Shown here piece by piece: positions 7,864 through 36,175 of a DNA stretch of 64,000 nt (position 1 is the stretch's first letter; the number at the start of each line of letters is the position of its first letter). Location: contig JANYCD010000035.1 in assembly GCA_025360425.1 (NCBI GenBank), positions 1-64,000 on the forward strand, in the 5' to 3' direction. This DNA is from Sterolibacteriaceae bacterium (GTDB taxonomy: Bacteria > Pseudomonadota > Gammaproteobacteria > Burkholderiales > Rhodocyclaceae). The notes beneath the pieces are model-generated. The model saw only the letters and a program-made list of their open reading frames with translations. It was not told where the DNA came from and ran no database searches. The position numbers were made by a program, and so were the translations under genes.

Positions 7864-7866
7864 CGC

Positions 7867-8184
7867 TCAGCCCTTGAGACTGTCGAGGTCCTCGACGTTG
7901 ATGGTCGAAAGATTGCGGAACAGCACCACCAGGATGGCGAGGCCGATCGCCGACTCGGCGGCGGCCACAGTCAGAATGAAGAACACGAACAACTGGCCCG
8001 CCGGATCATGCAGGTAGTGCGAGAAGGCGACGAAGTTGAGATTCACCGCCAGCAGCATCAGTTCGATGGCCATCAATAGCACGATCAGGTTTTTGCGGTT
8101 GAGGAAAATCCCCACCACGCTGATGGCAAACAGGATTGCGCCGAGCACCAGATAGTGCGACAGGGAAACACCCGCCCAGGTCAT
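7867..8184 (-). CDS. nuoK: NADH-quinone oxidoreductase subunit K
   Basis: A 105-residue subunit with three transmembrane helices, close to the usual 100. The two membrane glutamates of the proton path are present, in [16 protein letters not shown] and in [13 protein letters not shown]. Its start codon overlaps the nuoJ stop (ATGA), so translation is probably coupled. Confidence 0.96.
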
Positions 8185-20250: not shown

Positions 20251-20255
20251 GCGGA

Positions 20256-20951: not shown

Positions 20952-20959
20952 GTGGATCG

Positions 20960-21679: not shown

Positions 21680-21695
21680 GATTTTGTTCTCCGGA

Positions 21696-22517
21696 TCAGC
21701 CGAATCGGCCGGTTATGTAATCTTCAGTCCGCTTGTCGGTCGGCTTGATGAAGACATCATCGGTACGCCCAACCTCGACCAGCTCGCCAAGATACATGTA
21801 GGCAGTGAAGTCTGAAACTCGCGCCGCCTGCTGCATGTTGTGGGTAACGATGACAATGGTGAATTCGTCTTTTAATTCGCTCACCAGTTCTTCGATGCGC
21901 ATCGTAGAAATCGGGTCGAGCGCCGACGTAGGCTCATCGAGCAGCAGCACTTGCGGCTTCACCGCAATACCGCGGGCGATGCACAAGCGCTGTTGTTGTC
22001 CGCCCGAAAGACTCATGCCGCTCTGATTGAGCTTGTCGGCCACCTCGTTCCACAGCGCCGCCTTGCGCAGCGACCATTCCACGCGATCATCCATGTCGAC
22101 CCGTGACAGCCGCTCATGCAGTTTTACGCCGAAGGCAATGTTGTCGTAGATAGACATCGGAAAAGGTGTCGGCTTCTGGAACACCATGCCAATCCTGGCG
22201 CGCAACGCATTGAGGTCGGTCCCCTTGCCGAGGATATCGACGCCATCGAGCAACAGCTCGCCCTCCGAATGTTGATCCGGATAAAGCTCGTACATGCGGT
22301 TAATAGTGCGCAGCAACGTTGATTTTCCGCAGCCCGATGGCCCGATAAAGGCCGTTACCCGGCGCTTATAGATATCCAGGTTGATATTGCGCAGCGCCTT
22401 GTATTTTCCGTAATAGAAATTGAAATTTCTAAACGCGATCTGGGTCTCCAGATCCGTACCTGTGGTGCTCTGCATGATGGATTCCTTGTCTATCTTCATC
22501 GACGCTCGCATGTTCAT
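21696..22517 (-). CDS. pstB: Phosphate ABC transporter ATP-binding protein
   Basis: A 273-residue ATPase of the high-affinity phosphate importer. Walker A is GPSGCGKST, the signature is LSGGQQQR, and Walker [13 protein letters not shown]. Its first codon overlaps the pstA stop (ATGA). An internal start ([10 protein letters not shown], 14 codons later) would give a length closer to many homologues, so the N-terminus is uncertain. Confidence 0.95.
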
Positions 22518-23368
22518 TGTTTATGTTTATTGCGGAAAAGGATACGCGCCAAAATGTTTAGCGTCAGCACCCCCAGAGTAATCAAAAAAACCCCCGCCCA
22601 GGCAAGCTGCTGCCATTCCTTGAACGGGCTCATGGCGAACTTGAAAATGGTGGCCGGCAAGCTGGCCATCGGTTTGTTCATGTCCAGCGTCCAAAACTGA
22701 TTGGACAACGAGGTGAACAGCAATGGCGCGGTCTCGCCGGAGATGCGTGCCACCGCCAGCATGATCCCGGTCATGATGCCGGCCAGCGATGCCTTCAACG
22801 TAACCTTGCCGATCACCGCCCATCTAGGCGCCCCCAAGGCACTAGCCGCTTCACGCAAGGTATTGGGCACCAATTGCAACATGTTTTCGGTGGTTCTCAC
22901 TACAACCGGAATCACGATCAAGGCCAATGCGACTACGCCTGACATGGCAGAAAAATGGCCGACTCTGGCAACATAAATATCATAGACAAAGAGACCGATG
23001 ATGATCGAAGGTGCCGAGAGCAGCAAGTCGTTAACAAATCTTGTCGTGTGACCCAGCCAGGTATGCTTACCGTATTCAGCGAGATAGACTCCCGCAAAAA
23101 TCCCGATCGGCGTACCCACGATGGTAGCCAGCGAAATGAGAATCAGGCTGCCGGCAATCGCGTTCGCCAAACCGCCTCCCTCCGAACCAGGCGGCGGCGT
23201 CATCTCGGTAAACAAACGCCATGAAAAGCTGGCCACACCCAGTTCGACGGTTGTCGCAAGAATCCAGATCAACCAGAATAGTCCGAACAGCATGGCAATC
23301 ATTGCAATGGTCAACGCCAAAGCGTTTTTCAGTTTCCGGATTCTCCCAAGGCTCACTGCGGTACTCAT
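22514..23368 (-). CDS. pstA: Phosphate ABC transporter permease PstA
   Basis: A 284-residue permease with six helices. It holds the EAA-type loop [20 protein letters not shown] near residue 190, which docks on PstB, and the GETAPLLFT segment typical of PstA. It overlaps both neighbours by 4 bases (ATGA). Confidence 0.95.
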
Positions 23369-24342
23369 GTTCCTTTTCCTTCCTGCGCCGACAAACGCAT
23401 GAGCAGAAGCTTGGATAAGGAAAGAACAATCATAGTAATTAAAAACAGAATCAGTCCCAATTCAATCAACGATGCCGTGTAAATCGGCGATTCAGCTTCG
23501 GCGAACTCGTTTGCCAGCGCAGACGCAATACTGTTGCCAGGACTGAACAGCGAAAATCCGTTGAAAAAGTTCATGTTGCCTATGAGAAAGGTGACAGCCA
23601 TGGTTTCACCGAGGGCGCGACCCAAGCCCAGCATGATGCCGCCAACAACTCCAATCTTGGTATATGGCAGCACCACATTCCACACCACTTCCCATGTCGT
23701 GCAGCCCAGGGCGTAAGCGGACTCTTTGAGCATCGCGGGAGTAACTTCAAAGACATCCCGCATCACCGAGGCGATGAACGGAATCGTCATCACCGCCAGC
23801 ACCACACCAGCGCAGAGGATGCCGATACCAAGGGGCGGACCTTCAAACAAGCTACCCACTAGAGGCAACTTGCCGAGAGTGGCGGCCAAAAAGGGTTGAA
23901 CATATTTGGCAAAAATCGGCGAGAACACCAGCAAACCCCACATGCCGTAAACGATGCTGGGAATACCCGCCAGCAATTCAATGGCTATGCCGAGCGGGCG
24001 ACGCAGCCAGGGCGGCGACATCTCCGTAAGAAACAGCGCAATTCCGAAACTCACCGGCACGGCAATCACAAGTGCGACCAGTGAGGTTGCGAGAGTGCCG
24101 TAAATCGGAATCACAGCGCCAAAACGCTCCATCGGCGGATTCCACTCGCCGGTCCAGAGAAACCTTGCGCCAAACAACTTGATGGAGGGCCACGCGCCAT
24201 CGATCAGTGACGCGATAATTCCGACCAGCAGCAGAAGCGTCAACAGGGCAAAGAACCGGGTCAAGTTGAAAAATACCTTGTCACCCCAGTTGGTTCGAGA
24301 CGAAGAGGTCGTACTGTTATCCACGATTGCGAAACCTTCCAT
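23365..24342 (-). CDS. pstC: Phosphate ABC transporter permease PstC
   Basis: A 325-residue permease partner of PstA. The EAA loop is [19 protein letters not shown], and [18 protein letters not shown] is the family signature. I start it at ATG 24342 (MEGFAIVDN). An upstream GTG at 24366 lies inside the stem of a terminator-like hairpin and is less likely to be used. The hairpin separates it from pstS. Confidence 0.93.
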
Positions 24343-24352
24343 CAGCTTGCGG

Positions 24353-24384
24353 AAAACCCACGCCACCTTAAACGGCGGCGTGGG
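24353..24384 (-). terminator. Hairpin plus U-run between pstS and pstC (likely attenuator)
   Basis: Read on the minus strand, CCCACGCCGCC (24384-24374) pairs with GGTGGCGTGGG (24367-24357) over 11 bp with one G-U pair and a 6-base loop. UUUU (24356-24353) follows directly. This is the form of an intrinsic terminator. It lies 18 bases after the pstS stop codon and just before pstC, so partial termination would give more binding protein than permease. Confidence 0.75.
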
Positions 24385-24402
24385 AGTTTTGCGCGATATC
24401 GC

Positions 24403-25446
24403 TTACTTGCCGCTCCAGACCGGTTTGCCGGAAGCATCCTTGATATCGCCCCAGGCGGTGTGAACCAGCTTGATCACCTTGTCAGGCATCGGCACGTAGT
24501 CCATTTCAGCTGCCATACCAGCGCCATTCTTGTAGGCCCAGTCAAAGAACTTGATGACTTCGACCCCCTGCTCCGGTTTGTCCTGCACCTTCTGCATGAT
24601 GATAAAGGTAGCACCGGAAATCGGCCATGCATCTTTTTCCGGCTGATTGGTAATGATCGCGTAAAAGCCGGACTTGGTCCAGTCAGCAGCCGCAGCCGCG
24701 GACTTGAAGGTCGTGTCATCGGGCTGCGGATAATTACCGGCCGCATTTTGCAACAGCGTGTAAGTCAGCTTGTTCTGTTTGGCATAGACATACTCGACAT
24801 AGCCAATGGCGCCGGGAATGCGCTGCACGAATGCGGACACACCTTCATTGCCCTTGCCGCCCAGACCCACCGGCCACTGCACGGCAGTGCCTTCACCGAC
24901 CTTGGTCTTCCACTCTTCGCTGACTTTCGACAAATAGTTGGTGAAGATAAAGGTGGTGCCGGAACCATCGGCTCGGCGCACCACAGCGATGGCCTGATCA
25001 GGAAGCGGTACGCCGGGATTCAGATCGGCAAGCGCCTTGTCGTTCCATTTGACGATCTTGCCCAGATAAATATCCGCCAGCACGGGACCGGTGAGCTTGA
25101 TTTGGCCGCTCGTGATACCCGGCAAATTGAAGGCAAGCACTTCGCCGCCGATCACGGCGGGAAACTGCATCTGGCCGTCCTTTTCCAGTTCTTCGGGCTT
25201 GCGCGGCATATCGGATGCGCCGAAATCGACGGTCTTGGCGGTGATCTGCTTGATGCCGCCACCCGAACCGATGGACTGGTAGTTGATCTTGTTGCCGGTA
25301 GCCTTCTGATAGGCGTCGGCCCACTTGGCATAAATGGGGGCCGGGAAAGTGGCGCCTGCTCCAGTAATTTCGACAGCTTGAACATTGGTGGCCAGCGTCG
25401 CAGCAACCGCCAGCGTGAGGGACATTAACTTGAATTGGGTTGTCAT
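24403..25446 (-). CDS. pstS: Phosphate-binding periplasmic protein PstS
   Basis: A 347-residue secreted phosphate receptor. ATG 25446 has GGAG 9 bases upstream and gives a signal peptide that ends VQA before [18 protein letters not shown], the usual mature start. Phosphate-contact segments [24 protein letters not shown] and [17 protein letters not shown] are intact. It is first in the pst operon, behind a candidate PhoB box, and is followed by a hairpin that may favour its expression over the permeases. Confidence 0.96.
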
Positions 25447-25480
25447 TTGTTCGCTCCAATAGATGGTTGAGACGGAGCGG

Positions 25481-25514
25481 AGTTTATGGCGCGATTGTGA
25501 CACTGATGTTACAT
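25481..25514 (-). promoter_or_regulatory. Candidate PhoB box and -10 for pstS
   Basis: On the minus strand ATGTAAC (25514-25508) and GTGTCAC (25503-25497) are direct repeats spaced 11 bp apart, the arrangement PhoB binds (consensus CTGTCAT). Eight bases later comes CATAAA, a plausible -10. It lies 35 bases before the pstS start codon. Matches to consensus are imperfect. Confidence 0.6.
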
Positions 25515-25530
25515 GCCCCGCTCTGGCGGC

Positions 25531-25548
25531 CTTTCACGTTGCTTTCCT
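25531..25548 (+). promoter_or_regulatory. Candidate PhoB box for the OlsB-like gene
   Basis: On the plus strand CTTTCAC (25531-25537) and CTTTCCT (25542-25548) form an 11-bp-spaced direct repeat resembling a PhoB site, facing the divergent acyltransferase gene. No good -10 follows, so this is weaker than the pstS and plcP sites. Confidence 0.4.
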
Positions 25549-25639
25549 GTGACACAAATTTGAAACCTGCCGGAAATACTCCTGCAACCGTCATCTCACA
25601 CACTCCTGCTGGTCAATAACGACGCCAGGAGAAATCGGC

Positions 25640-26395
25640 ATGCTGCACAAACGCATTGAGCAAAGCCAGACCAAACATCGTCCCCAATACCATGTGGGCA
25701 TCGCACGCTCCGACAGCGAAATCCGCGAAGCGCAAAAACTGCGCTATCGCGTCTTCGCAGGCGAAATGGGCGCCAAGTTACAAAACCGCGAAGCTGGCGT
25801 CGACGCCGACTTGTTCGACCCCTACTGCGAACACCTGATCGTACGCGACGAAGCCAATGGTCGCATCGTCGGCACCTATCGCATCCTCTCGCCAACTGCA
25901 GCCCGTCGTGTCGGCGCCTACTATTCCGAATCCGAATTCGACCTCACGCGCTTGCAGCATCTGCGGCAGCAAATGGTGGAGGTCGGACGCTCCTGCATCG
26001 ATCCCGATTATCGCGGCGGCGCGGTGATTGCGCTGCTCTGGTCCAAGCTGGCCGAGTACATGGTGACCAACGGCTACCAATACCTGATCGGCTGCGCTTC
26101 CATCGCCATGACCGATGGTGGCCACAATGCCGCGAATCTTTTCGTCCAACTGATTGAAAACAGCCTCGCACCAGTCGAATATCGCGTGTTTCCGCGTTCG
26201 CCGCTGCCTTATGAGCGGCTGGTGACCGGCCAACGGGCCGAGATTCCGCCACTCATCAAGGGCTATCTGCGCGCCGGTGTCTATGTCTGCGGCGAACCTT
26301 CGTGGGACCCCGACTTCAATACCGCCGACCTGCTCGTGATGTTGCCCATGTCACGCATCAACGCGCGTTACGTCAAGCATTTCGTCAAGGAATGA
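25640..26395 (+). CDS. OlsB-like GNAT-fold N-acyltransferase
   Basis: A 251-residue protein of the COG3176 group. The GNAT-like core shows ARSDSEIREAQKLRYRVFAGEMGA (residues 21-44) and VEVGRSCIDPDYRGGAVIALLW near 113-135. Relatives include OlsB, which attaches a 3-hydroxyacyl chain to the amino group of ornithine as the first step of ornithine-lipid synthesis, and FeeM-type N-acyl amino acid synthases. The start has AGGAG 9 bases upstream. It is divergent from pstS and heads a gene series with a glycosyltransferase and dgkA, which favours a lipid role under phosphate shortage. No OlsA/PlsC-type second acyltransferase lies beside it, so the final product is uncertain. Confidence 0.75.
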   Translation: MLHKRIEQSQTKHRPQYHVGIARSDSEIREAQKLRYRVFAGEMGAKLQNREAGVDADLFDPYCEHLIVRDEANGRIVGTYRILSPTAARRVGAYYSESEFDLTRLQHLRQQMVEVGRSCIDPDYRGGAVIALLWSKLAEYMVTNGYQYLIGCASIAMTDGGHNAANLFVQLIENSLAPVEYRVFPRSPLPYERLVTGQRAEIPPLIKGYLRAGVYVCGEPSWDPDFNTADLLVMLPMSRINARYVKHFVKE

Positions 26396-26426
26396 GACGC
26401 CTGATGCATTGCGGCCAAGGATTCCC

Positions 26427-27572
26427 ATGCACGTCTTGATGCTGTCGGACGTTTATTTTCCACGGATCAACGGCGTCTCCACCTCCATCGAAACTTTTCG
26501 GCGCGATCTGGGCGATTTGGATATTAATGTTTCCCTGATCGCTCCGGAGTACTCCACCGCCGACAAAACGCCCGCCACCTGGCGCGTGCCTTCACGCAAG
26601 GTGCTGTTCGACCCGGAAGATCGGCTGATGCATTGGGATCATCTGATGCGTACCGTGAAACAGGCCGGCAACAGCAATGTCGACATGGTGCATATCCAGA
26701 CACCCTTCCTTGCCCACTACGCCGGCATTCGCGCCGGCCGCAGCTTCGGCGTTCCAATGGTGGCCACCTACCACACGCACTTCGAAGAATACATCCACCA
26801 CTATCTGCCTCTCCTGCCGCGCTCTGCATTGCGTCTGCTCGCCCGCCGTCTGGCGCGAAACCAGTGCAATGATCTCGACGCGGTGGTCGTTCCGTCAGAA
26901 GCCATGCGACAAACGCTTAGCGACTACGGTGTCACCGCACCGTTGCATATTCTCCCGACGGGAATCCCGATTGATCATTTCAGCAACGGCAATGGCCGGT
27001 TGTTCCGCGAACGCCATGCGATTGCACCCGATCGACCGCTGGCGCTTTATGTGGGTCGCATCGCCCATGAAAAGAACATCGGTTTTCTGATCGAAGCCGC
27101 TGAACAAATTCGCCATCAACGGCCCGACTTTCTGTTGATGATCGCCGGCGAAGGCCCGGCGCTGGCTTCATTACGCCGCAGCGTTGAAAAACTGCGATTG
27201 GATGACAACGTGCGTTTTGTCGGCTACCTCGATCGCGAAACTGAATTGCCCGATTGCTATGCCGCCGCCGACGTATTTGTGTTTTCTTCCAAAACCGAAA
27301 CCCAGGGACTGGTGCTGCTCGAAGCCATGGCCGCCGGCATTCCGGTCTACGCCTTTGCTGCGATGGGAACACGCGATATTGTCGAACCGTGTCGGGGCGC
27401 CGTGGTGGCGCCGCAAGAATCCGTCGCGTTTGCCGCCGGGCTCACCGAACTGCTGGCCGATCCGAAACGGTTGAGCGATCTCTCAGTACAGGCCCGCGAA
27501 TTCGCCAACATGTGGTCCGCACCGGAACGCGCACGCCAACTAGCCGAACTCTATCGTTCGTTGGTCGACTAG
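26427..27572 (+). CDS. GT4 glycosyltransferase (first of two)
   Basis: A 381-residue GT-B enzyme. The N-terminal MHVLMLSDVYFPRINGVSTSIE motif, the central VGRIAHEKN and the EX7E motif in SKTETQGLVLLEAMAAG are typical of GT4 sugar transferases. That family includes diacylglycerol glycosyltransferases (Agt, SqdX) and alpha-mannosyltransferases. ATG 26427 has AAGGA upstream and matches family starts. It lies 31 bases after the OlsB-like gene and 36 before dgkA. I infer a membrane-lipid acceptor from these neighbours; donor and acceptor cannot be read from the sequence. Confidence 0.82.
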   Translation: MHVLMLSDVYFPRINGVSTSIETFRRDLGDLDINVSLIAPEYSTADKTPATWRVPSRKVLFDPEDRLMHWDHLMRTVKQAGNSNVDMVHIQTPFLAHYAGIRAGRSFGVPMVATYHTHFEEYIHHYLPLLPRSALRLLARRLARNQCNDLDAVVVPSEAMRQTLSDYGVTAPLHILPTGIPIDHFSNGNGRLFRERHAIAPDRPLALYVGRIAHEKNIGFLIEAAEQIRHQRPDFLLMIAGEGPALASLRRSVEKLRLDDNVRFVGYLDRETELPDCYAAADVFVFSSKTETQGLVLLEAMAAGIPVYAFAAMGTRDIVEPCRGAVVAPQESVAFAAGLTELLADPKRLSDLSVQAREFANMWSAPERARQLAELYRSLVD

Positions 27573-27608
27573 TTCCACAAATTCCACTGCCGACACTAAA
27601 ATCTCCGC

Positions 27609-28004
27609 ATGCAACGAGACTCCATTTCCGAACACAGCGAAAGCCCATTCAAGGGCAAGACCGGTCTGATCCGCATCTGGAATGCCCTCCATTATTCGCT
27701 CGCCGGCCTCAAGGCCGCCTACCAGCTCGAAGATGCTTTTCGCCAGGAAGTAAGACTGGCGCTGATCCTGATTCCACTCGCGCTGTTTCTGCCGGCCAAT
27801 GGTCTGGGCAAGGCGCTGATGATCGGCAGCGTCATGCTGGTGCTGATAGTCGAACTGCTGAATTCCGCTGTCGAGGCAACGGTAGATCGAATTTCCCTGG
27901 AAAACCACCTGCTCGCCAAGCGCGCCAAGGATATCGGCAGTGCCGCGGTATTCATATCACTGTTGAATGTCGTCGTAATCTGGGGGCTGGTGCTGTTCGG
28001 GTAA
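27609..28004 (+). CDS. dgkA: Diacylglycerol kinase (DgkA family)
   Basis: A 131-residue integral membrane kinase that phosphorylates diacylglycerol to phosphatidate. It has the usual three helices. The active-site segment ELLNSAVEATVDRIS (near residue 80) and the Glu/Asp-rich LEDAFRQEVRLAL are conserved. The N-terminus is about 10 residues longer than in E. coli. In this setting it would recycle or limit diacylglycerol made by lipid turnover. Confidence 0.9.
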   Translation: MQRDSISEHSESPFKGKTGLIRIWNALHYSLAGLKAAYQLEDAFRQEVRLALILIPLALFLPANGLGKALMIGSVMLVLIVELLNSAVEATVDRISLENHLLAKRAKDIGSAAVFISLLNVVVIWGLVLFG

Positions 28005-28024
28005 ATCTATTTCCTCGAAACAGG

Positions 28025-28053
28025 CAGTAACTTTCCTGTAACCCCTCTTTCAT
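28025..28053 (+). promoter_or_regulatory. Candidate PhoB box with three repeats
   Basis: CAGTAAC (28025-28031), CTGTAAC (28036-28042) and CTTTCAT (28047-28053) are three direct repeats at an exact 11-bp period, each near the CTGTCAT half-site. The group sits 33 bases before the second glycosyltransferase. It implies a separate PhoB-driven promoter inside the gene cluster. A clear -10 is not evident. Confidence 0.62.
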
Positions 28054-28086
28054 CAACGCGTCGCATGCCGCAGCCACCATGGCGGC

Positions 28087-29304
28087 ATGGAACTCAACGA
28101 CGCGAAACTTCTGCGCCGCCCTGCGCTTCCCATGCGCGTGGCGCTGGTGACCGAGACTTATCCACCGGAAATAAACGGCGTTGCGATGACGCTGGGACAT
28201 ATTGTTGACGGATTGCGCCGACGCCGGCACCCGGTGCAAATCGTTCGTCCGCGGCAGCAGGCGCACGAAGTACCAGTGCGGGACGACACGCTTCATGAAG
28301 TCCTGGTCAAGGGCTTTCCGATTCCGCGCTATCCGGATCTGCGCTTCGGCCTTCCTGCGCCAAATACCCTTGCCAGTCTCTGGTCCGCAATACCGCCTGA
28401 CGTTGTCCACATCGCAACGCAGGGGCCCCTCGGCTGGTCGGCCATCGCAGCCGCACGAAAACTGAAACTGCCCATCAGTTCAAGCTTTCACACCAACTTC
28501 GACGCCTACAGTCGACATTACGGAATCGGTCTACTCAAACCGTTGATCTCGGGCTATCTGCGCCACTTCCACAACCGCACCGACATGACGCTGGTACCGA
28601 CCAAAGGTCTGGCTGGGATGCTTCGCAGCGAGGGTTACCGGAATGTCGGCATCGTTTCGCGCGGTGTGGATACCCGGTTGTTCAATCCGGGACGGCGCTC
28701 TAATGAATTGCGTGCACAGTGGGGTGCAGCTTCGGGCGAACTGATAGTCAGCTACGTTGGCCGCCTTGCGCCGGAAAAAAATCTGGATCTGGTCTTCGCT
28801 ACTTTTGACGAAATCAAGCACGTCCGGCCCGATGCCCGGTTGCTGCTGGTTGGTGATGGCCCACAGCGGGCGGCACGCAGCATGCGCCACCCGGAGCATA
28901 TTTTTGCCGGCATGTGCCGTGGCGAAGACCTCGCTGCACACTACGCCTCATCCGATCTGTTCCTGTTTCCAAGTCTGACCGAAACCTTCGGCAACGTGAC
29001 TGCGGAAGCTCTCGCCAGCGGACTCGGCGTGGTGAGCTACAACTACGCGGCGGCGGCCGAGTTGATCGAAGACGGTCACAACGGCGCGTTGGTCGCGCCG
29101 GGAGACTCGGCGGCATTCATCAAGTCCGCAGTGACCCTGGCGACCCATCCTTCGCGGCTGGATCACTTCAAGCTCCGCGCCGCCACCTCCATCGCCAGGC
29201 TCGACTGGGAGCATGTCCACGATGGATTCGCGGCCACTCTGGCGGAGCTCGTCGCCACGCACGAAAGGGCGCACCATGCACAGAACACCGTGGCAACAAA
29301 TTAA
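28087..29304 (+). CDS. GT4 glycosyltransferase (second of two)
   Basis: A 405-residue GT-B enzyme distinct from the first. It has MRVALVTETYPPEINGVAMTL, SSSFHTNFDAYSRHYG, VGRLAPEKN and the EX7E motif SLTETFGNVTAEALASG. These features resemble the SqdX/Agt-type and mannosyltransferase branch of GT4. The first Met is used although a second (MRVALVTE) lies 15 codons in. A triple PhoB-like repeat lies just upstream and a PAP2 phosphatase gene overlaps its end. A diacylglycerol glycosyltransferase is the best guess, not a proof. Confidence 0.8.
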   Translation: MELNDAKLLRRPALPMRVALVTETYPPEINGVAMTLGHIVDGLRRRRHPVQIVRPRQQAHEVPVRDDTLHEVLVKGFPIPRYPDLRFGLPAPNTLASLWSAIPPDVVHIATQGPLGWSAIAAARKLKLPISSSFHTNFDAYSRHYGIGLLKPLISGYLRHFHNRTDMTLVPTKGLAGMLRSEGYRNVGIVSRGVDTRLFNPGRRSNELRAQWGAASGELIVSYVGRLAPEKNLDLVFATFDEIKHVRPDARLLLVGDGPQRAARSMRHPEHIFAGMCRGEDLAAHYASSDLFLFPSLTETFGNVTAEALASGLGVVSYNYAAAAELIEDGHNGALVAPGDSAAFIKSAVTLATHPSRLDHFKLRAATSIARLDWEHVHDGFAATLAELVATHERAHHAQNTVATN

Positions 29305-29800
29305 CGACCTGGATCTGGCGCTGTGTCTGCACTTCAACAAGCTGGCGCACATCCGCTTCTGCCGCGCCCTGTTCCGCGGCATTAGCCGGCTTGGCGATGG
29401 TGTGTTGTGGTATTCGCTGATGGGCGTTCTGCTGCTCGCTCTTGGCATCGATGCGCTGCCTACGGTAAGCCGCATGGCGTTCGCCAGCGTGCTCGGCCTG
29501 GCCATCTATAAATGGCTCAAGACCCGCACCTCGCGCCCGCGACCCTGCCAGGTATATGCCGCCATCTCCGCCGCGGCACCGATGCTGGATCGTTTCAGCT
29601 TTCCTTCCGGGCACACCCTGCATGCGGTGTCGTTCAGCATGGTCGCCTGCGCCGGCTATCCCCAACTGGCACCGGTGCTTTATCCGTTCGCCATGCTGGT
29701 AGCAATTTCTCGGCCCATCCTCGGCTTGCACTATCCGAGCGATGTGCTTGCCGGTGCTTTGATCGGCACACTCGTTGCGCAGTTAGCCCTGATCATCTGA
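29276..29800 (+). CDS. PAP2-family membrane phosphatase
   Basis: A 174-residue membrane protein with all three phosphatase motifs: KWLKTRTSRPRP (near residue 78), FPSGHTLH (near 111) and SRPILGLHYPSD (near 143). PAP2 enzymes remove phosphate from lipids such as phosphatidate or undecaprenyl diphosphate. ATG 29276 has AAAGG upstream and overlaps the glycosyltransferase gene by 29 bases. Next to a GT4 enzyme it could supply diacylglycerol as acceptor. It ends 5 bases from the convergent mgtA. Confidence 0.88.
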   Translation: MHRTPWQQINDLDLALCLHFNKLAHIRFCRALFRGISRLGDGVLWYSLMGVLLLALGIDALPTVSRMAFASVLGLAIYKWLKTRTSRPRPCQVYAAISAAAPMLDRFSFPSGHTLHAVSFSMVACAGYPQLAPVLYPFAMLVAISRPILGLHYPSDVLAGALIGTLVAQLALII

Positions 29801-29805
29801 GAGGC

Positions 29806-32568
29806 TCACTGCCAACCGTAGCGCTTGGCGTAGAAAGTTTTCATCAGTTGGGTCAGCACGCCATAGCCGACCAACGTGACCAACAGCCAGGGAAAGTAAG
29901 CCAATGGCAGCGCCTGCATCTTGAAGTACGGCGCGATGCTGGTCATCGGCATCAGGATGCCGACCGCGATGATACCCAGCGTCATCCCCAGCAGCGGCCA
30001 TGCGGCGCGGCTCTGGATGAACGGAATCTTGCGGGTGCGGATCATGTGCACGATCAGGGTTTGCGACAGCAGGCCTTCGACGAACCAGCCGGACTGGAAC
30101 AGCGTCTGATGCTCTGGCGAGTTGGCGCCGAAGACAAACCACATCACTGCAAAGGTAGCGATGTCGAAGATGGAGCTGATCGGGCCGAAAAACACCATGA
30201 AACGCCCCACGTCCTCTGGATTCCAGCGTTGCGGCTTTTGCAAAAGCTCAGGGTCGACGTTATCGAAGGGAATGCCGATCTGCGAAATATCGTAGAGCAG
30301 ATTCTGCACCAGCAACTGCAACGGCAGCATCGGCAGGAAGGGTAGGAATACGCTGGCTACCAATACCGAGAAGACATTGCCGAAATTGGAACTGGCCGTC
30401 ATCTTGATGTACTTGAGCATGTTGGCGTAGGTCTTGCGGCCTTCGATGACACCCTCTTCCAGCACCATCAGACTCTTTTCGAGCAAGATGATGTCGGCCG
30501 CTTCCTTGGCGATATCAACTGCGGTATCGACCGAAATGCCGATATCGGCTGCGCGCAATGCCGCTGCATCGTTGATGCCATCGCCCATGAAACCGACCAC
30601 GTGGCCGTTGCTGCGCAGCATGTGAACAATGCGCTCCTTGTGGTTGGGCGTGAGTTTGGCGAAGACATGGCAGCGTTCAACAGCCTTAGCCAGATCGGCG
30701 TCGTTCATGGCTTCGAGATCGGAACCGAGCAGTATCTGATCGGACTCCAGCCCGACCTCGTGGCAAATTTTTGCCGTTACCCTTTCGTTGTCGCCGGTCA
30801 GCACCTTGAAGGAAACACCGTGAGCCATCAGCGCTTTGATGGCCGGCGCGGCCGACTCCTTGGGTGGATCGAGGAAGGCTATATAGCCGATCAGGGTCAA
30901 GTTGGACTCATCGGCAACGCTATAGACCTCGCGCTCGGGCGGCAGCTCACTCGCCGCCACCGCGACAACACGCAGTCCCTGTTCATTGAGGCCGCTGGTG
31001 ACTTCCTTGATGCGCGCCAGCAATTCCGCTGTCAGCGGCTCTTCCTTGTCACCATGGCGAACGCGGGTGCAGATCGCCAGCATTTCCTCCAGCGCACCCT
31101 TGCAAATCAGCAGGTGGTGATCTTCACGCTCGGCCACTACGACCGACATACGGCGGCGCTGAAAATCGAACGGGATCTCGTCCACCTTGCGAAAGTCTGT
31201 GGCAACCTTGAGTTCCTTGTGCAGTTGGGCTTGCTCCAGCACTGCCACGTCGAGCAGGTTCTTCAGCCCGGTCTGGTAGTAACTGTTTAGGTAGGCGTAC
31301 TCGAGTACTTCGTCCGTTTCGGTGCCGAAAACATCGGTGTGGCGTTCGAGGAAGATTTTGTCCTGCGTAAGGGTGCCGGTCTTGTCGGTGCACAGCACAT
31401 CCATGGCGCCGAAATTCTGGATGGCGTCTAGTCGTTTGACGATCACCTTCTTGCGCGACAGCAGCACCGCGCCCTTGGCCAGTGTCGAAGTGACAATCAT
31501 CGGCAGCATTTCCGGCACCAGTCCGATAGCGACCGACAGGGCAAACAGCGAGGCCTCGAGCCAGTCGTGTTTGGTGAAGCCATTGATGAGCAGCACAACC
31601 GGCGCCATCACCAGCATGAAGCGGATCAGCAGCCAGCTTACCTTGTTGATGCCGGTCTGAAACGCTGTTTGCGTCTGCACTGCGGTGACGCGTTGGGCCA
31701 ATGCGCCAAAGTATGTTGCACCACCTGTAGCGACCGCCACCGCCGTGGCCGATCCGCTGACGACGTTGGTGCCCATGAACAGGATGTTGTCGAGTTCCAG
31801 AGGATTGCTTGCATTGGGATCGCGCAGATGGGGAAATTTTTCCACCGGCAACGATTCACCGGTCATCGCCGCCTGCGCCACGAAAAGATCCTTGGCCGAA
31901 AGCAGGCACAGATCGGCGGGAATCATGTCGCCGGCAGCGAGGACAACGATGTCGCCCGGCACAATGATTTTCAATGAAACTTCGGCGCGAGTGGCTGGCT
32001 TCGTGTGAATATCCACACCAAAGTATTCGCGAAATAGTGGCGCGGCGTCTTTGGAAAGGTCGCGACGCAGCACCGTAGCGGTATTGCTGACCATCTCCTT
32101 GAGTCGATCGGCGGCACGATTGGAACGCGATTCCTGCACAAAGCGCATCAGCGTCGACAACACCACCATGCTGCCGATAACGATGGCGGCTTTCATGTCC
32201 TCGGTGAAATACGAAATTGCCGCGAGTAGCGTCAACAACATGTTGAACGGGTTTTCGTAGCTTTGCCACAGATGCCTCCACCAGGGCAACGGCTTTTCAT
32301 GTTCGACTTCATTCGGGCCGTGAATGCGCAACCGTTCTTCGGCCTGGCCCTCGGTCAACCCATCGACATGCGTATCGAGGCGTGCCAACAATGCTTCAAC
32401 GTCCTCATGCGCCGCATCGGCGAGGACATGGCCAAGGGTATCGGGCATGTCCCGGCTCACCGAAGTGCCACGCAGCGTGTCGAGCAATGTGATACGACGG
32501 AAATGCCGGGTAATCGCGCGCGTACGCACGAAGCCGGCAAAAAAATCCTTCAAGGCAACCATCTTCAT
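29806..32568 (-). CDS. mgtA: Magnesium-importing P-type ATPase
   Basis: A 920-residue P3B-type ATPase that brings Mg2+ into the cell. The phosphorylation site VLCTDKTGTLTQDK, the actuator TGES motif (AMTGESLPVEKF) and the hinge VGFMGDGINDAAALRAADIG are intact. The C-terminal block of membrane helices has the MgtA/MgtB-type NLLYDISQIGIPFDNVD. ATG 32568 follows GGGAG; an upstream in-frame start at 32613 lacks this. The gene lies downstream of plcP on the same strand after a hairpin-rich 285-base spacer. Loss of Mg-binding phospholipids or phosphate-Mg balance may explain its place here. Confidence 0.92.
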   Translation of the reverse strand: MKMVALKDFFAGFVRTRAITRHFRRITLLDTLRGTSVSRDMPDTLGHVLADAAHEDVEALLARLDTHVDGLTEGQAEERLRIHGPNEVEHEKPLPWWRHLWQSYENPFNMLLTLLAAISYFTEDMKAAIVIGSMVVLSTLMRFVQESRSNRAADRLKEMVSNTATVLRRDLSKDAAPLFREYFGVDIHTKPATRAEVSLKIIVPGDIVVLAAGDMIPADLCLLSAKDLFVAQAAMTGESLPVEKFPHLRDPNASNPLELDNILFMGTNVVSGSATAVAVATGGATYFGALAQRVTAVQTQTAFQTGINKVSWLLIRFMLVMAPVVLLINGFTKHDWLEASLFALSVAIGLVPEMLPMIVTSTLAKGAVLLSRKKVIVKRLDAIQNFGAMDVLCTDKTGTLTQDKIFLERHTDVFGTETDEVLEYAYLNSYYQTGLKNLLDVAVLEQAQLHKELKVATDFRKVDEIPFDFQRRRMSVVVAEREDHHLLICKGALEEMLAICTRVRHGDKEEPLTAELLARIKEVTSGLNEQGLRVVAVAASELPPEREVYSVADESNLTLIGYIAFLDPPKESAAPAIKALMAHGVSFKVLTGDNERVTAKICHEVGLESDQILLGSDLEAMNDADLAKAVERCHVFAKLTPNHKERIVHMLRSNGHVVGFMGDGINDAAALRAADIGISVDTAVDIAKEAADIILLEKSLMVLEEGVIEGRKTYANMLKYIKMTASSNFGNVFSVLVASVFLPFLPMLPLQLLVQNLLYDISQIGIPFDNVDPELLQKPQRWNPEDVGRFMVFFGPISSIFDIATFAVMWFVFGANSPEHQTLFQSGWFVEGLLSQTLIVHMIRTRKIPFIQSRAAWPLLGMTLGIIAVGILMPMTSIAPYFKMQALPLAYFPWLLVTLVGYGVLTQLMKTFYAKRYGWQ

Positions 32569-32617
32569 GACATCTCCCAGGCGCTGAAACGCCAAAAATC
32601 CGCCAGCAATCACGGAT

Positions 32618-32740
32618 TGCCGGCGACGGGATTAATATCAAGGAAGGCGCTGCTGGAACGCCATCCCGCTTGATTGGCGGGATGCCGGCGACCGGAGTTC
32701 GAGTCGGCGTTACCCCACCATGGTGCCGGCCTTGGCCGGC
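32618..32740. repeat. REP-like hairpins between plcP and mgtA
   Basis: Two clean hairpins are present: CATCCCGC/GCGGGATG at 32663-32685 with a 7-base loop, and GCCGGCC/GGCCGGC at 32725-32740 with a 2-base loop. Partial direct repeats (TGCCGGCGACGGGATT and TGCCGGCGACCGGAGTT) start near 32619 and 32684. This looks like a repetitive extragenic palindrome. It also lies in the 5' region of mgtA, so a leader role cannot be excluded. The rest of the 285-base spacer shows nothing I recognise. Confidence 0.5.
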
Positions 32741-32853
32741 GAGCTGTTTATGCCAGCAATTGAATCTATGGCACTAGAGCAACTGTCCACGTGGGGCTCC
32801 ACGAAATGAGAAGTGGGCGAGGGTACAGCAAAATAACTGACTGCACACTGACT

Positions 32854-33687
32854 TCAAGCGTCCGCTTTTTCGCGCAGGCTTTTATGCAAGGAAGACAACG
32901 ATAAATCGGCAAGCGCCACCATTGCCGGCTCTTCCTGCCGTACCGGTTGGCCATCGGCCTGATGCAGCAATTCCATCCGGCCATCCAGATGTTCGACGAT
33001 GGCGGTGCAGCTATCCACCCAATCACCGCAGTTGATGTAAGTGACACCATCGATCTCGCGGATCACCGCGCTGTGGATGTGGCCGCAAATCACCCCATCC
33101 ATGCCCCGCTCGCGCGCAGCATGAATCACCGAGTCTTCGAAATCGAAAATGAAACTGACTGCGGTCTTGATCCTGCGCTTGGCATAGCCGGCCAGAGACC
33201 AGTAGCCGGGCCGCTTCAGGTGGCGGCGCAGCCATGACAATCCGTTGTTCAACGAGACCAGCCAGTTGTAGGCGACATCGCCAAGGACGGCCACCCAGCG
33301 GTGATAACGGGTGACCTGATCGAACTCGTCGCCATGAATCAACAGATAGCGCCGCCCGTCCGCTGCGATGTGGACATGCTCATTGACGACCTTGATGTCG
33401 CCGAAACTGACGCCACCATATTCGCGCAGTGCCTCGTCGTGATTGCCGGGAATCAGGAACACATGCTGACCATGCCGGGCACGGCGCAATATCTTTTGCA
33501 CCACGGTGTTCTGCTGCGCGGTCCACACAATGCCGCGGCTCATGGCCCAGAAGTCGACAATGTCGCCGACCAGATACAGATATTCGGATTCGTAGCAGCG
33601 CAAAAATTCCAGCAAGCGCTCGGCCTGGCAACCACGCGTTCCCAGATGGATATCGGACAGGAAAATCGCTCTTACTCGTTCACTCAC
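32854..33687 (-). CDS. PlcP-like metallophosphoesterase (phospholipid-cleaving type)
   Basis: A 277-residue calcineurin-fold protein related to LpxH. The metal motifs are FLSDIHLGTRG, LVGDIVDFW, PGNHDE, IHGDEFDQ and CGHIHSA. The combination DIHLGTRGCQAE with WDYVYR-less, basic KRRIKTAVSFIFDFEDSV and CGDWVDSCTAIVEH resembles PlcP. That enzyme cleaves phosphatidyl lipids to diacylglycerol during phosphate starvation in rhizobia and marine bacteria. Start: GTG 33687 (MSERVRAIFL) is favoured over TTG 33702; neither has a strong ribosome-binding site. A strong PhoB-like site lies upstream. The alternative is a UDP-diacylglucosamine hydrolase-like function. Confidence 0.78.
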   Translation of the reverse strand: MSERVRAIFLSDIHLGTRGCQAERLLEFLRCYESEYLYLVGDIVDFWAMSRGIVWTAQQNTVVQKILRRARHGQHVFLIPGNHDEALREYGGVSFGDIKVVNEHVHIAADGRRYLLIHGDEFDQVTRYHRWVAVLGDVAYNWLVSLNNGLSWLRRHLKRPGYWSLAGYAKRRIKTAVSFIFDFEDSVIHAARERGMDGVICGHIHSAVIREIDGVTYINCGDWVDSCTAIVEHLDGRMELLHQADGQPVRQEEPAMVALADLSLSSLHKSLREKADA

Positions 33688-33732
33688 GGCTTGCCGGCTC
33701 AAATTTCATGGCGGCAATGGTCCGCTGCGTGA

Positions 33733-33772
33733 GCTACAGCAATATGTCTGATTGATGAAATTTTGATGACAT
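33733..33772 (-). promoter_or_regulatory. Candidate PhoB box and -10 for plcP
   Basis: On the minus strand ATGTCAT (33772-33766), ATTTCAT (33761-33755), CAGACAT (33750-33744) and CTGTAGC (33739-33733) recur at an exact 11-bp period. The first two are close to the PhoB half-site. CATATT, a good -10, begins 8 bases after the second repeat, the same geometry as at pstS. Confidence 0.7.
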
Positions 33773-33813
33773 CGGCAGGGGCTAACCAAAGCGGTTGCCG
33801 GCAGGTATTCTGG

Positions 33814-33840
33814 GTATTACAATAACAAACATAGTAATAC
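33814..33840. promoter_or_regulatory. Operator-like inverted repeat before the vapB-type antitoxin
   Basis: GTATTAC (33814-33820) and GTAATAC (33834-33840) are perfect inverted 7-mers with centres 20 bp apart, ending 14 bases before the antitoxin ATG. The AT-rich spacer and this spacing fit binding of an AbrB-fold antitoxin on one face of DNA for autoregulation. Confidence 0.6.
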
Positions 33841-33854
33841 TCAGGAGACTTGCA

Positions 33855-34094
33855 ATGTCCACAACACTCACCAGTAAAGGTCAAGTGACTATACCCAAGC
33901 AAATTCGTGATGCCCTGAATCTGGCGGCGGGAAGCTCGGTGGAGTTCGCCGTCAATCCTGATGGCGATGTCGTGATACATAAAGTCGGCGCGCGGTCAAA
34001 TCGCAAGCCCGATCGCTTCGAGACGGCGCGAGGCAAGGCCGATGTCAAGTGGCGCACCGACGATTTGATGGCGCTGCTGCGCGGCGAGAGTTGA
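33855..34094 (+). CDS. AbrB/MazE-fold antitoxin (VapB-like)
   Basis: A 79-residue protein with an N-terminal swapped-hairpin DNA-binding domain (TLTSKGQVTIPKQIRDALNL, then GSSVEFAVNPDGDVVIHKV). The C-terminal tail (RTDDLMALLRGES) probably wraps the toxin. ATG 33855 has AGGAG upstream. It overlaps the PIN toxin start (TGATG) and has an inverted repeat before it. Confidence 0.88.
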   Translation: MSTTLTSKGQVTIPKQIRDALNLAAGSSVEFAVNPDGDVVIHKVGARSNRKPDRFETARGKADVKWRTDDLMALLRGES

Positions 34095-34495
34095 TGCTGC
34101 TGGTCGACACCAATGTGCTGATCGACGTTCTGGAGGATGAACCGGAGTGGGCCGACTGGTCGATTGCGCAGTTACGCGCCCAATCGAAGGTGCACTCGCT
34201 GGCGATAAATCCAGTGATCTACGCAGAACTGTCACTGACATTTTCTTCGGTCGAGGCACTGGACGACACTATCGGTCATCTCAAGCTCGCCGTGCTGGAG
34301 TTGCCGCGTCCCGCGCTGTTCCTGGCCGGGAAGGCTTTCTTACGTTATCGGCGCCGGGGCGGCAGGAAAAGCAACGTGCTGGCTGACTTTTTCATCGGCG
34401 CCCATGCGGCTGTGCTTGGATGTCCCCTGCTGACGCGGGATACCCAACGTTACCAGGCCTATTTTCCCAGCGTGACCTTGATTACACCCGACTGA
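34094..34495 (+). CDS. PIN-domain ribonuclease toxin (VapC-like)
   Basis: A 133-residue PIN nuclease. The acidic metal site is intact: Asp in MLLVDTNVLIDVL, Glu in NPVIYAELSLTF, Asp in NVLADFFIGAHA and Asp in LLTRDTQRY. Such toxins cleave tRNA or rRNA when the antitoxin is lost. It starts at ATG 34094, sharing bases with the antitoxin stop codon. A 163-base spacer without other features follows, before arsR. Confidence 0.88.
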   Translation: MLLVDTNVLIDVLEDEPEWADWSIAQLRAQSKVHSLAINPVIYAELSLTFSSVEALDDTIGHLKLAVLELPRPALFLAGKAFLRYRRRGGRKSNVLADFFIGAHAAVLGCPLLTRDTQRYQAYFPSVTLITPD

Positions 34496-34636: not shown

Positions 34637-34660
34637 ATATTTCCATAATAATGGAAATAT
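34637..34660. promoter_or_regulatory. Perfect 10-bp-arm palindrome overlapping the arsR start
   Basis: ATATTTCCAT (34637-34646) and ATGGAAATAT (34651-34660) are exact inverted repeats around AATA. The last two bases are the A and T of the arsR start codon (34659). This is the expected shape of an ArsR/SmtB operator, but its overlap with the start codon is unusual. Confidence 0.7.
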
Positions 34661-35006
34661 GAAAACGTTAAACGCGGTGACAGCGCTTGCAGCGCTGGCC
34701 CAGGAAAACCGGCTGTCCATCTTTCGCCTGCTGGTCAAGACCGGTGAACCAGGCTTGAGTGCGGGGGCCATCGCCGCCAGGTTAGGCCTGCCGGCGGCAA
34801 CGTTGTCCTTCCATATTGCCCAACTGGCGCGGGCGGGGCTCGTTAGCGCGAAACCAGAGAGTCGTTTCATCTACTACGCTGCCAACTACACGGCGATGGA
34901 CGACCTGATCGCCTACCTCACCGACCATTGCTGCGAGGGCAAGGCCTGCCTGCCGAAGACCGCCGCTGCGACGACTGTTAAACGCCGTTTGCCGAAGGCA
35001 GCCTGA
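34659..35006 (+). CDS. arsR: ArsR/SmtB-family arsenic-responsive repressor
   Basis: A 115-residue winged-helix repressor. The recognition helix is in LGLPAATLSFHIAQLARAGLV (about residues 42-62). Arsenite ligands appear to be the C-terminal C91, C92 and C97 (HCCEGKACLP), like the Acidithiobacillus-type ArsR, not the CxC in helix 4 of the plasmid R773 type. It heads an arsR-arsC-aquaporin operon. Confidence 0.88.
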   Translation: MKTLNAVTALAALAQENRLSIFRLLVKTGEPGLSAGAIAARLGLPAATLSFHIAQLARAGLVSAKPESRFIYYAANYTAMDDLIAYLTDHCCEGKACLPKTAAATTVKRRLPKAA

Positions 35007-35015
35007 GGAAACCCC

Positions 35016-35513
35016 ATGTCCGATCAAATCAAGAATGTGCTGTTTCTGTGCGCCGGCAACTCCGCCCGCAGCATTCTCGCCGAGGCCATCATTAACGCAC
35101 AAGGTCGCGACCGTTTTCGTGGCTTCAGTGCGGGCAGCCACCCGGTCGGTCGTGTCAACCCATTTGCGCTGGCATTGCTGGAACGTCAGGGCATGTCGAC
35201 CAAAAGCTTGCGCAGCAAGAGCTGGAACGAGTTCGCCGTGCCCGGCGCGCCGCATCTGGACTTCGTATTCACCGTCTGCGACAACGCCGCAGGTGAGGTT
35301 TGCCCTATCTGGCCGGGTCAGCCGATCAGTGCACACTGGGGTGTTGAAGATCCGGCGGCGATCGAGGGTAGCGACGAAGACAAGCAGAAAGCCTTCTTCC
35401 ACGCCTTCAACTTCCTGCAACGGCGCATCTCGCTGTTCGTCAATCTGCCCCTGACCACACTCGACCGCGTCGGCCTGCAAAAAAAGCTTGCCGACATCGG
35501 CCGCGCATCATGA
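35016..35513 (+). CDS. arsC: Arsenate reductase, low-molecular-weight phosphatase type
   Basis: A 165-residue enzyme that reduces arsenate to arsenite. The CX5R catalytic loop is FLCAGNSARS with Cys12. A second Cys pair lies in TVCDNAAGEVCP, and the family HWGVEDPA segment is present. The thioredoxin-linked class is likely. It starts 9 bases after arsR, and its stop overlaps the aquaporin start (ATGA). Confidence 0.9.
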   Translation: MSDQIKNVLFLCAGNSARSILAEAIINAQGRDRFRGFSAGSHPVGRVNPFALALLERQGMSTKSLRSKSWNEFAVPGAPHLDFVFTVCDNAAGEVCPIWPGQPISAHWGVEDPAAIEGSDEDKQKAFFHAFNFLQRRISLFVNLPLTTLDRVGLQKKLADIGRAS

Positions 35514-36175
35514 GACCGCTGGCGCGCGCCGCAACCGCTGAAGCGCTGGGTAGCGCCGCGCTGCTCGCTGTCGTCGTCGGTTCTGGCATCATGGCCGAGC
35601 GGCTTGCGCTGGGCAACACTGCCGTCGCCCTGCTGGCCAACGCACTCGCCACCGGCTTTGCGCTTTACGCGCTGATCGCCTTGTTTGGCCCTGTTTCGGG
35701 TGCCCATTTCAATCCGGTGGTCACGTTGATGGAAACACTTCGCGGTCATATCGACCGCACCCGACTACTAACCTACTGCTGCGCACAATGGGGCGGCGCA
35801 ATCATTGGCGTATGGCTCGCCCATTTGATGTTTGATCTGCCCATCATTCAACTAAGCCACCACGCCCGCAGCGGGCTCGGCCAGTTCGTCAGCGAAATCG
35901 TCGCCACCACCGGTCTGTTGCTGCTCATCCTCGGTTTGTCGCGGCAGGCGGCGGAACGCATTCCGGCCGCGGTTGGCGCCTACATCGCTGCCGCGTACTG
36001 GTTTACCGCGTCGACTTCGTTCGCCAATCCGGCGGTCACCACCGCGCGCATGCTGACTGACAGCTTCGCCGGCATCCTGCCGATGGATGCACCGGTTTTT
36101 TTTCTCGCGCAATTGATAAGCGTATTTATTGCACTCGTCCTGCACCGCCTGCTTTGGCCATCAACGCCCGCCTGA
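35510..36175 (+). CDS. Aquaporin-family channel, probable arsenite efflux (AqpS-like)
   Basis: A 221-residue MIP-family channel with six helices and the two pore motifs SGAHFNPVVT and SFANPAVTTAR (NPV and NPA). Its stop-start overlap with arsC shows it belongs to the arsenic operon. In Sinorhizobium, AqpS takes the place of ArsB and lets arsenite flow out after arsenate reduction. No arsB or acr3 is present in the operon here, so this channel is the likely exit. Confidence 0.85.
   Translation: MRPLARAATAEALGSAALLAVVVGSGIMAERLALGNTAVALLANALATGFALYALIALFGPVSGAHFNPVVTLMETLRGHIDRTRLLTYCCAQWGGAIIGVWLAHLMFDLPIIQLSHHARSGLGQFVSEIVATTGLLLLILGLSRQAAERIPAAVGAYIAAAYWFTASTSFANPAVTTARMLTDSFAGILPMDAPVFFLAQLISVFIALVLHRLLWPSTPA

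Follow-up and report, generated by a model that had tools for sequence, protein, structure and literature searches.

Do the lipid genes that stand beside the pst-pho phosphate genes of a Sterolibacteriaceae bacterium form one programme for rebuilding membranes when phosphate is scarce, and what would the two family GT4 glycosyltransferases among them (GT4a and GT4b) contribute to it? The genes lie in a 64,000-nucleotide stretch of contig JANYCD010000035.1, which we call the window. We favour, with a probability of roughly 0.8, the interpretation that the locus is a PhoB-controlled membrane-lipid remodelling module through which sugar and amino-acid lipids would replace phospholipids at low phosphate. 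A phosphate-linked programme of this kind had been proposed from the letters of the DNA, before any database search (the sequence-only reading), and its core persists, namely a PlcP route to glycolipid, an OlsB-like start of ornithine-lipid synthesis, synteny and Pho-box-like sites; MgtA drops out of it, and the best OlsA candidate lies on another contig.

Organisation of the locus

The features, in window coordinates, are these:

18928 to 25503, minus strand: phoR, phoB, phoU, pstB, pstA, pstC and pstS, open reading frames for the phosphate sensor/regulator and transporter
25531 to 25548, plus strand: weak Pho-box-like site before the olsB-like gene, 10/14 positions, shuffle P = 0.06, alone not significant
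25640 to 26395, plus strand: candidate OlsB-like ornithine N-acyltransferase; Acetyltransf_5, best NCBIfam matches two OlsB equivalogs
26409 to 27572, plus strand: GT4a, GT4 glycosyltransferase (probable start 26427), candidate diacylglycerol (DAG) glycosyltransferase in the place of Agt1
27609 to 28004, plus strand: dgkA, diacylglycerol kinase; DAGK_prokar, 113 bits
28025 to 28053, plus strand: triple Pho-box-like site before GT4b, 15/21, second best of the window, shuffle P = 0.0015
28087 to 29304, plus strand: GT4b, Agt2-type GT4 glycosyltransferase and candidate glucuronosyl-DAG synthase, from family scan, identity and tree
29213 to 29800, plus strand: lipid phosphatase of the PAP2 family, whose probable start at 29276 falls within the end of GT4b
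29806 to 32613, minus strand: mgtA, Mg2+-transporting P-type ATPase; TIGR01524, 1372 bits; probably a bystander
32854 to 33702, minus strand: plcP, predicted PlcP-type phospholipase C (metallophosphoesterase), from identity to PlcP-type proteins
33733 to 33772, minus strand: four tandem Pho-box-like half-sites before plcP; the triple at 33744 to 33772 is the best of the window, 16/21, reached in 0/2000 shuffles

The lipid operon and pstSCAB-phoU-phoB-phoR are divergently oriented, with the probable start of pstS at 25449. Between 25504 and 33772, the olsB-like gene, GT4a, dgkA, GT4b and the PAP2 gene follow one another on the plus strand with short gaps or, for GT4b and PAP2, an overlap, and mgtA and plcP lie on the minus strand. 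All of the genes named by the sequence-only reading correspond to open reading frames where it had placed them, and family scans concur; for each of PstS, PhoR, PhoB, PhoU, PstB, PstA and PstC, the score exceeds one or more NCBIfam equivalog cut-offs. The assembly comprises 2.47 Mb and is 84% complete.

A predicted PlcP-type phospholipase and an Agt2-type glycosyltransferase

The protein encoded at 32854 to 33702 shares 48.7-52.6% identity with six PlcP-type proteins from named bacteria (Pseudomonas aeruginosa, S. meliloti, Sphingomonas, Roseomonas, Thiodictyon and Mitsuaria), the S. meliloti comparator being a pSymB copy that may differ from the characterised gene. The P. aeruginosa protein, to which identity is ~51%, is followed by a GT4 gene, matching the described PA3219-PA3218 arrangement. 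The motifs DxH, GDxxD, GNHD and GHxH, which we take to be the metal-ligand motifs of metallophosphoesterases, are invariant in 22/22 rows of the PlcP alignment; LpxH belongs to the same superfamily, so these motifs do not tell the two enzymes apart. We rejected an LpxH identity because the window protein scores only 49 bits on the LpxH model TIGR01854 (cut-off 190), close to the 44.5 bits of P. aeruginosa PlcP, and the genome encodes a separate LpxH that scores 269 bits and is 29% identical to the window protein. The gene therefore most likely encodes a PlcP-type phospholipase C, predicted to cleave phospholipid to DAG.

GT4b shares 48.5% identity with a P. aeruginosa enzyme, which we take to be PA0842 (Agt2), and 32.9% with Agt1. 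The neighbours of the P. aeruginosa gene are plcR, a phospholipase C gene and a ceramidase gene, presumably the PA0842-plcR adjacency. The GT4b rows, Agt2 and an Acinetobacter relative form one clade (support 95/95) next to the Agt1-type enzymes (98/96), and GT4b shares the motif FPSLxETFGNVxxEA. In a tree drawn from its midpoint, with long outgroup branches, neither GT4b nor GT4a falls among the genome's other GT4 proteins or with E. coli WaaG and WaaB. This comparison came out in favour of the sequence-only reading, against which a grouping of the GT4 enzymes with polysaccharide enzymes would have counted: GT4b joins Agt2, and the two GT4 enzymes of the locus lie away from WaaG and WaaB. When expressed in E. 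coli, Agt2 yields glucuronosyl-DAG (GADG) and Agt1 yields monoglucosyl-DAG (MGDG; PMC8528852). GT4b is thus a candidate glucuronosyl-DAG synthase of the Agt2 type.

As a possible source of UDP-glucuronate for GT4b, a candidate UDP-glucose dehydrogenase is encoded on another contig (C24). Its best equivalog, TuaD, gives 498 bits, under the cut-off of 700, and it passes the general NDP-sugar dehydrogenase model (455 bits, cut-off 190). A locus on contig C78 that had appeared to combine OlsA with a UDP-glucose dehydrogenase was rejected, as its dehydrogenase scores better as the UDP-N-acetylmannosamine type, which leaves the C24 gene as the better candidate. Pho-like sites upstream of the C24 dehydrogenase gene and of the OlsA-like gene are poor (8/14 and 7/14).

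The gene set recurs in related genomes

To place the locus among its relatives, we searched 101 genomes, 61 of the window's family (this one included) and 40 of the same order, with E-value limits of 1e-40 for GT4a, 0.001 for DgkA, 1e-30 for PlcP, 1e-80 for GT4b, 1e-30 for OlsB and 1e-45 for Agt1. GT4a occurs in 46, PlcP in 56, GT4b in 51, OlsB in 75 and DgkA in 84. Two families were called linked when they lay within 10 kb of each other, among genomes with both; for single genes placed at random in a 3.5-Mb genome, this would happen by chance in ~0.6% of genomes, a rough figure. Linkage was found for GT4a-PlcP in 24/35 genomes, GT4a-GT4b in 25/40, DgkA-GT4b in 32/50, PlcP-GT4b in 27/37, GT4b-OlsB in 23/49, DgkA-OlsB in 22/66, GT4a-DgkA in 21/45, DgkA-PlcP in 19/51, PlcP-OlsB in 16/51 and GT4a-OlsB in 12/44. 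Twenty-seven DgkA-GT4b pairs are separated by <400 bp and 15 GT4a-PlcP pairs by <200 bp. Of the ten pairs, GT4a and GT4b show the tightest co-occurrence (Fisher p = 6e-12, without correction for phylogeny). The module is real: linkage of the five families exceeds chance.

Among the best 80 of 585 GT4a loci in named genomes, many of them on short contigs, PlcP is present in 49, GT4b in 42, DgkA in 34, PstB in 23 and OlsB in 20. In this same set the nearest GT4a relatives are Rhodocyclaceae metagenome-assembled genomes, and the PlcP-bearing loci come from Dechloromonas, Azonexus, Zoogloea, Accumulibacter, Sterolibacterium, Rugosibacter, Sulfuritalea and Parasulfuritortus. A second set of 40 loci derives from the 45 other genomes with a GT4a match, five of which (G032, G033, G042, G070 and G082) were left out as partial or 33% matches; the two sets (L033-L072 and L083-L162) share contigs in part, and their counts are not summed. 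Four alignments (A1-A4) combine the window protein with 21, 21, 26 and 10 further rows. The search for the same gene set that the sequence-only reading had called for thus found module genes clustered in Rhodocyclaceae and other relatives, and the idea of a one-off locus does not survive the recurrence of similar clusters in Rhodocyclaceae.

Pho-box-like sites precede plcP and GT4b

We scored sites in the window against the published E. coli Pho-box consensus, in its 14-position single form and its 21-position three-repeat form. Single sites are about as frequent as expected (4 at 11/14 versus 3.4 expected, with 0.6 more at 12) and therefore mean little alone. The two best triple sites of the whole window, over both strands, lie upstream of plcP (16/21) and GT4b (15/21), and each is correctly oriented. 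For the relatives' upstream regions, we dropped duplicates by upstream sequence, stretches that were <150 bases long or contained N, and GT4 matches of <42% identity. A site of at least 11/14 precedes operon-first plcP in 15/47 cases (0.4 expected), GT4a in 12/62 (0.4) and GT4b in 7/20 (0.5), as well as dgkA in 4/17 and phoU in 1/6 (0.0-0.5 expected per class). The positive control, pstS, has such a site in 5/8 cases (0.1 expected), and pstA, pstB and pstC genes called operon-first have one in 0/40. The predicted Pho boxes upstream of plcP and GT4b in the window, together with their enrichment in relatives, most likely reflect membership in the Pho regulon.

GT4a stands in the place of Agt1 beside plcP

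GT4a is 28-29% identical to Agt1 and Agt2. It forms a separate clade (support 100/100), which joins the Agt clades with support 92/87 in the midpoint-drawn tree. The GT4a motif is mostly F[AS]S[RKQ]TETQGLVLLEA, from which three rows deviate at the first residues and two by one residue near the end; the window enzyme reads FSSKTETQG, and the corresponding stretch is FPSxTDT[FY]G in Agt1-type rows and FPSxxET[FY]G in Agt2-type rows. Both glutamates of retaining GT4 enzymes, which follow an E-x7-E rule, are kept. The published Agt motif is FPSxTDTFG (PMC8231724), and no donor motif of that type is present in the window enzyme. Given its low identity, its own clade and the missing motif, we rejected GT4a as an Agt; it may work like one without being one. 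Of the two GT4 enzymes, only GT4b, which groups with Agt2, is accordingly of the Agt type; GT4a belongs to a separate subfamily, and the sequence-only reading needs correcting on this point.

The distribution of GT4a among the 101 genomes is informative about its role. Agt1-type enzymes are present in 13 of them, always beside plcP (gap 9-624 bp). GT4a is absent from 12 of these 13; in the remaining one (G082), a partial match to it lies on a different contig. Of the 56 genomes with plcP, 34 have GT4a only, 12 Agt1 only, one both and nine neither (Fisher p = 6e-6, uncorrected for phylogeny); without G033, a 33% GT4a match, these numbers become 33, 12, one and ten. Agt1 lies between plcP and dgkA in G020, G081 and G090, with OlsB near in G090, indicating a similar module around it. 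In the gammaproteobacterium Thiodictyon, too, a relative of GT4a (48.7%) is linked to plcP. Because GT4a occupies Agt1's place beside plcP, it is a candidate DAG glycosyltransferase of a new subfamily. The exchange fits, without proving, the replacement of Agt1 by a distant relative that would likewise be a DAG glycosyltransferase.

GT4a also occurs as a stand-alone gene in same-family genomes (L043, L046, L052, L057 and L059), where its neighbours recur from one locus to another; at several of the loci these are fbp-like and cytochrome bc1-like genes, by names read from translations, in place of plcP.

Candidate ornithine-lipid genes, DgkA and PAP2

The OlsB-like protein, the sole Acetyltransf_5 protein found in the genome, scores 180 and 172 bits on two OlsB equivalogs (cut-offs 350 and 320), which are nevertheless its best matches of all models. 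The best OlsA candidate is the C78 acyltransferase, with 130 and 129 bits on two OlsA models (its best; cut-off 300). Of the proposed ornithine-lipid route, then, the OlsB-like gene is present; the route is incomplete within the locus, its OlsA candidate lies on another contig, and the OlsB cut-offs are missed. In Acinetobacter, olsB is phosphate-regulated and olsA is not (PMC11828411). PlcP, DagK, OlsA and OlsB are all enriched in phosphate-starved P. putida BIRD-1 (PMC5082522), which gives a precedent for dgkA in the module.

The GT4b-PAP2 pair of the window is found again in L035, L038, L050, L060 and L068 and in an Acinetobacter stretch of 11 kb (L078), where the pair, at 4890-6764, consists of a GT4b-like gene (41%) and a PAP2 gene behind it; no plcP is annotated within that stretch.

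A model for phosphate-scarce membranes

The interpretation rests on family-level kinship of the genes, conserved linkage, the Agt1/GT4a exchange and Pho-box-like sites; for enzyme activities and products, we infer throughout from characterised relatives. When phosphate is scarce, PlcP would remove the phosphate head group from phospholipids to give DAG. GT4b would convert DAG to an acidic glucuronic-acid glycolipid that could replace phosphatidylglycerol, and GT4a would put a neutral sugar, most likely glucose, on DAG, as Agt1 does in Pseudomonas. The OlsB-like enzyme, with OlsA encoded elsewhere, would provide ornithine lipid. DgkA would convert unglycosylated DAG to phosphatidic acid and PAP2 could do the reverse, so the pair would set the DAG pool. 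What is least certain is which sugar and acceptor GT4a would use and which way DgkA and PAP2 would work.

Several observations weigh against this model. Scored against the E. coli consensus, the window's sites upstream of pstS and olsB fall short of significance (P = 0.19 and 0.06), and operon-first olsB in relatives has a site in just 2/23 cases (0.1 expected). Genes that follow another module gene seldom have one (plcP 1/17, GT4a 0/51, GT4b 2/38, dgkA 1/29); internal genes are expected to lack their own site, and these counts therefore lend no support either. GT4a sites in the named set come mostly from stand-alone genes (5/17, versus 2/54 for clustered GT4a). All five families are linked in just 6/101 genomes; for 13 genomes the largest linked set comprises four families, for 18 it comprises three, for 21 two, for 36 one and for 7 none, leaving 43 with one or none. 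Twelve of the 13 genomes with Agt1 belong to families other than the window's, and the co-occurrence and exchange tests ignore phylogeny. Two of the 46 genomes scored as having GT4a are 33% matches and three are partial. The OlsB-like protein stays below the curated OlsB cut-offs, and the proteins lost in the P. putida phoBR mutant include PlcP and OlsAB, not DagK, though the discussion of that paper speaks of a PHO-dependent set (PMC5082522).

Alternative explanations

If GT4b and GT4a acted in series on one lipid, a hexuronic acid and then a hexose would be added to DAG, giving a two-sugar head group. We regard this as a tentative possibility. The two genes lie within 10 kb in 25/40 genomes and show the strongest co-occurrence of all pairs (p = 6e-12), only 1/13 Agt1 genomes has GT4b, such that the GT4a-GT4b pair may jointly replace Agt1, and in phosphate-starved Caulobacter two GT4 enzymes, one acting after the other, make HexHexA-ceramide (PMC6445935). 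The Caulobacter substrate, however, is ceramide, GT4a occurs also as a stand-alone gene with Pho-box-like sites, and it holds the plcP-neighbour place of Agt1, which uses DAG itself to make MGDG (PMC8528852). A different alternative is that GT4a is not a lipid glycosyltransferase and makes a phosphate-free surface polysaccharide, or a part of the lipopolysaccharide (LPS), that is induced by phosphate starvation. Family GT4 is huge and mixed, GT4a is just 28-29% identical to Agt1 and Agt2 and is without the FPSxTDTFG/FPSxTETFG motif, its NCBIfam matches are all far below cut-off (138 bits versus 400 for the alpha-monoglucosyl-DAG synthase (Mgs) model), and the charge of its basic N-terminal half, considered as a possible sign of membrane binding, fails to distinguish it from the other GT4 proteins of the genome. 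We nevertheless consider this quite improbable, since GT4a shares Agt1's position beside plcP, its two best matches are lipid glycosyltransferase models (137.7 and 137.6 bits, the next 93), and in the midpoint drawing it groups with the Agt clades (92/87), away from the other GT4 proteins and WaaG/WaaB.

It is also conceivable that dgkA and PAP2 are housekeeping genes of envelope recycling that merely sit in the locus, the module then consisting of plcP, GT4a, GT4b and olsB. The dgkA gene is the single copy found in the 84%-complete genome, DgkA is present in 84/101 genomes, many without the cluster, and PAP2 occurs in only 6/40 and 6/80 GT4a loci (sets that overlap in part). Yet dgkA is within 10 kb of GT4b in 32/50 genomes (<400 bp in 27), adjoins Agt1-plcP in three genomes without GT4b, and has a counterpart, DagK, that becomes enriched alongside PlcP and OlsAB when P. 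putida BIRD-1 is starved of phosphate (PMC5082522); a housekeeping role alone therefore appears unlikely to us.

Neighbouring genes

The sequence-only reading had counted mgtA as part of the remodelling cluster. Among the 40 and 80 GT4a loci, which are partly the same contigs, mgtA is near plcP in just one other genome (L039 = L127), and in the window there is no significant Pho-like site upstream of it (P = 0.46). We therefore rejected MgtA as a module member: it is not conserved across relatives' loci and is probably a bystander. In that other genome the orientation differs from the window, where mgtA has the glycolipid operon on one side and plcP on the other.

Immediately adjacent to the plcP promoter, on the plus strand at 33795-34495, a MazE/AbrB-type antitoxin gene overlaps a gene for a PIN-domain (VapC-like) toxin. 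Three further plus-strand genes follow at 34659-36175, coding for a regulator of the ArsR type, a low-molecular-weight phosphatase resembling ArsC and a channel of the MIP family; this row may be a small arsenate-type operon near the phosphate genes. The arsC-like and MIP channel proteins score under NCBIfam cut-offs. AT skew in 2-kb steps is highest in the window at 2001-8000 and 60001-62000 (0.17-0.26).

Relation to known systems

The pathway itself is known, as PlcP-Agt remodelling together with ornithine lipid (PMC4796936, PMC8528852, PMC9239053), and the window holds a compact variant with one uncharacterised enzyme. The closest parallel is P. aeruginosa PlcP-Agt1/Agt2 (PA3219, PA3218 and PA0842), which resembles the window in PlcP (~51%) and GT4b (48.5% to the presumed Agt2). 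It likewise combines two GT4 enzymes, Pho boxes and ornithine lipid (PMC8528852), the last two being predicted in the window. The two differ in that GT4a, from a separate subfamily, holds Agt1's place here, and in that plcP-agt1 and agt2 are at separate places in Pseudomonas whereas the window has one locus beside pst-pho with dgkA and the olsB-like gene. In the plcP-agt operons of marine bacteria and Methylosinus, plcP also adjoins a GT4 gene and has a Pho box (PMC4796936, PMC9239053), and Methylosinus co-produces ornithine lipid (PMC9239053), for which the window has its OlsB-like gene. These operons have a single Agt, and the term diacylglycerol kinase appears in neither text. P. putida BIRD-1 shares the same functional set, including diacylglycerol kinase and OlsB, with plcP and olsAB at separate places by locus tags (PMC5082522), whereas dgkA, the olsB-like gene and plcP are in one locus in the window and the OlsA candidate is elsewhere. 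Caulobacter crescentus Sgt1 and Sgt2, which we liken by description, are two phosphate-starvation GT4 enzymes with neighbouring locus tags that differ by acting serially on ceramide (PMC6445935).

As far as could be found, two things are new: a compact locus of this kind in Rhodocyclaceae, and GT4a as a subfamily. No description of such a cluster in Rhodocyclaceae was found by title or abstract start, which is weak evidence of absence given that subscription journals were mostly outside the search, and no tested member of the GT4a group was found in the literature looked at. GT4a may fit two gaps in print: the MGDG synthase of Methylosinus, described as unidentified, and a non-Agt putative DAG glycosyltransferase that lies beside plcP in some type Ia methanotrophs and has been compared with a B. 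subtilis enzyme (both PMC9239053). We give even odds to a broader proposal: that phosphate-regulated DAG glycosyltransferases include a new subfamily founded by GT4a (typical motif FASRTETQGLVLLEA), that in Rhodocyclaceae and certain further proteobacteria GT4a has taken over from Agt1 as the partner of PlcP, that it also serves as a stand-alone gene of the Pho regulon, and that such an enzyme could fill the ‘unidentified MGDG synthase’ gap of other bacteria.

The cluster or its core is present on contigs of Dechloromonas, Azonexus, Zoogloea and Accumulibacter (among the best 80 of 585 GT4a loci); the cultured bearers include Dechloromonas denitrificans (L123) and D. hortensis (L112). Rhodocyclaceae include phosphorus-removing and denitrifying bacteria of wastewater. 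If our interpretation is correct, these organisms could swap phospholipids for glycolipids and ornithine lipid by means of one compact, Pho-controlled locus, and a new subfamily of lipid glycosyltransferases would become easily testable.

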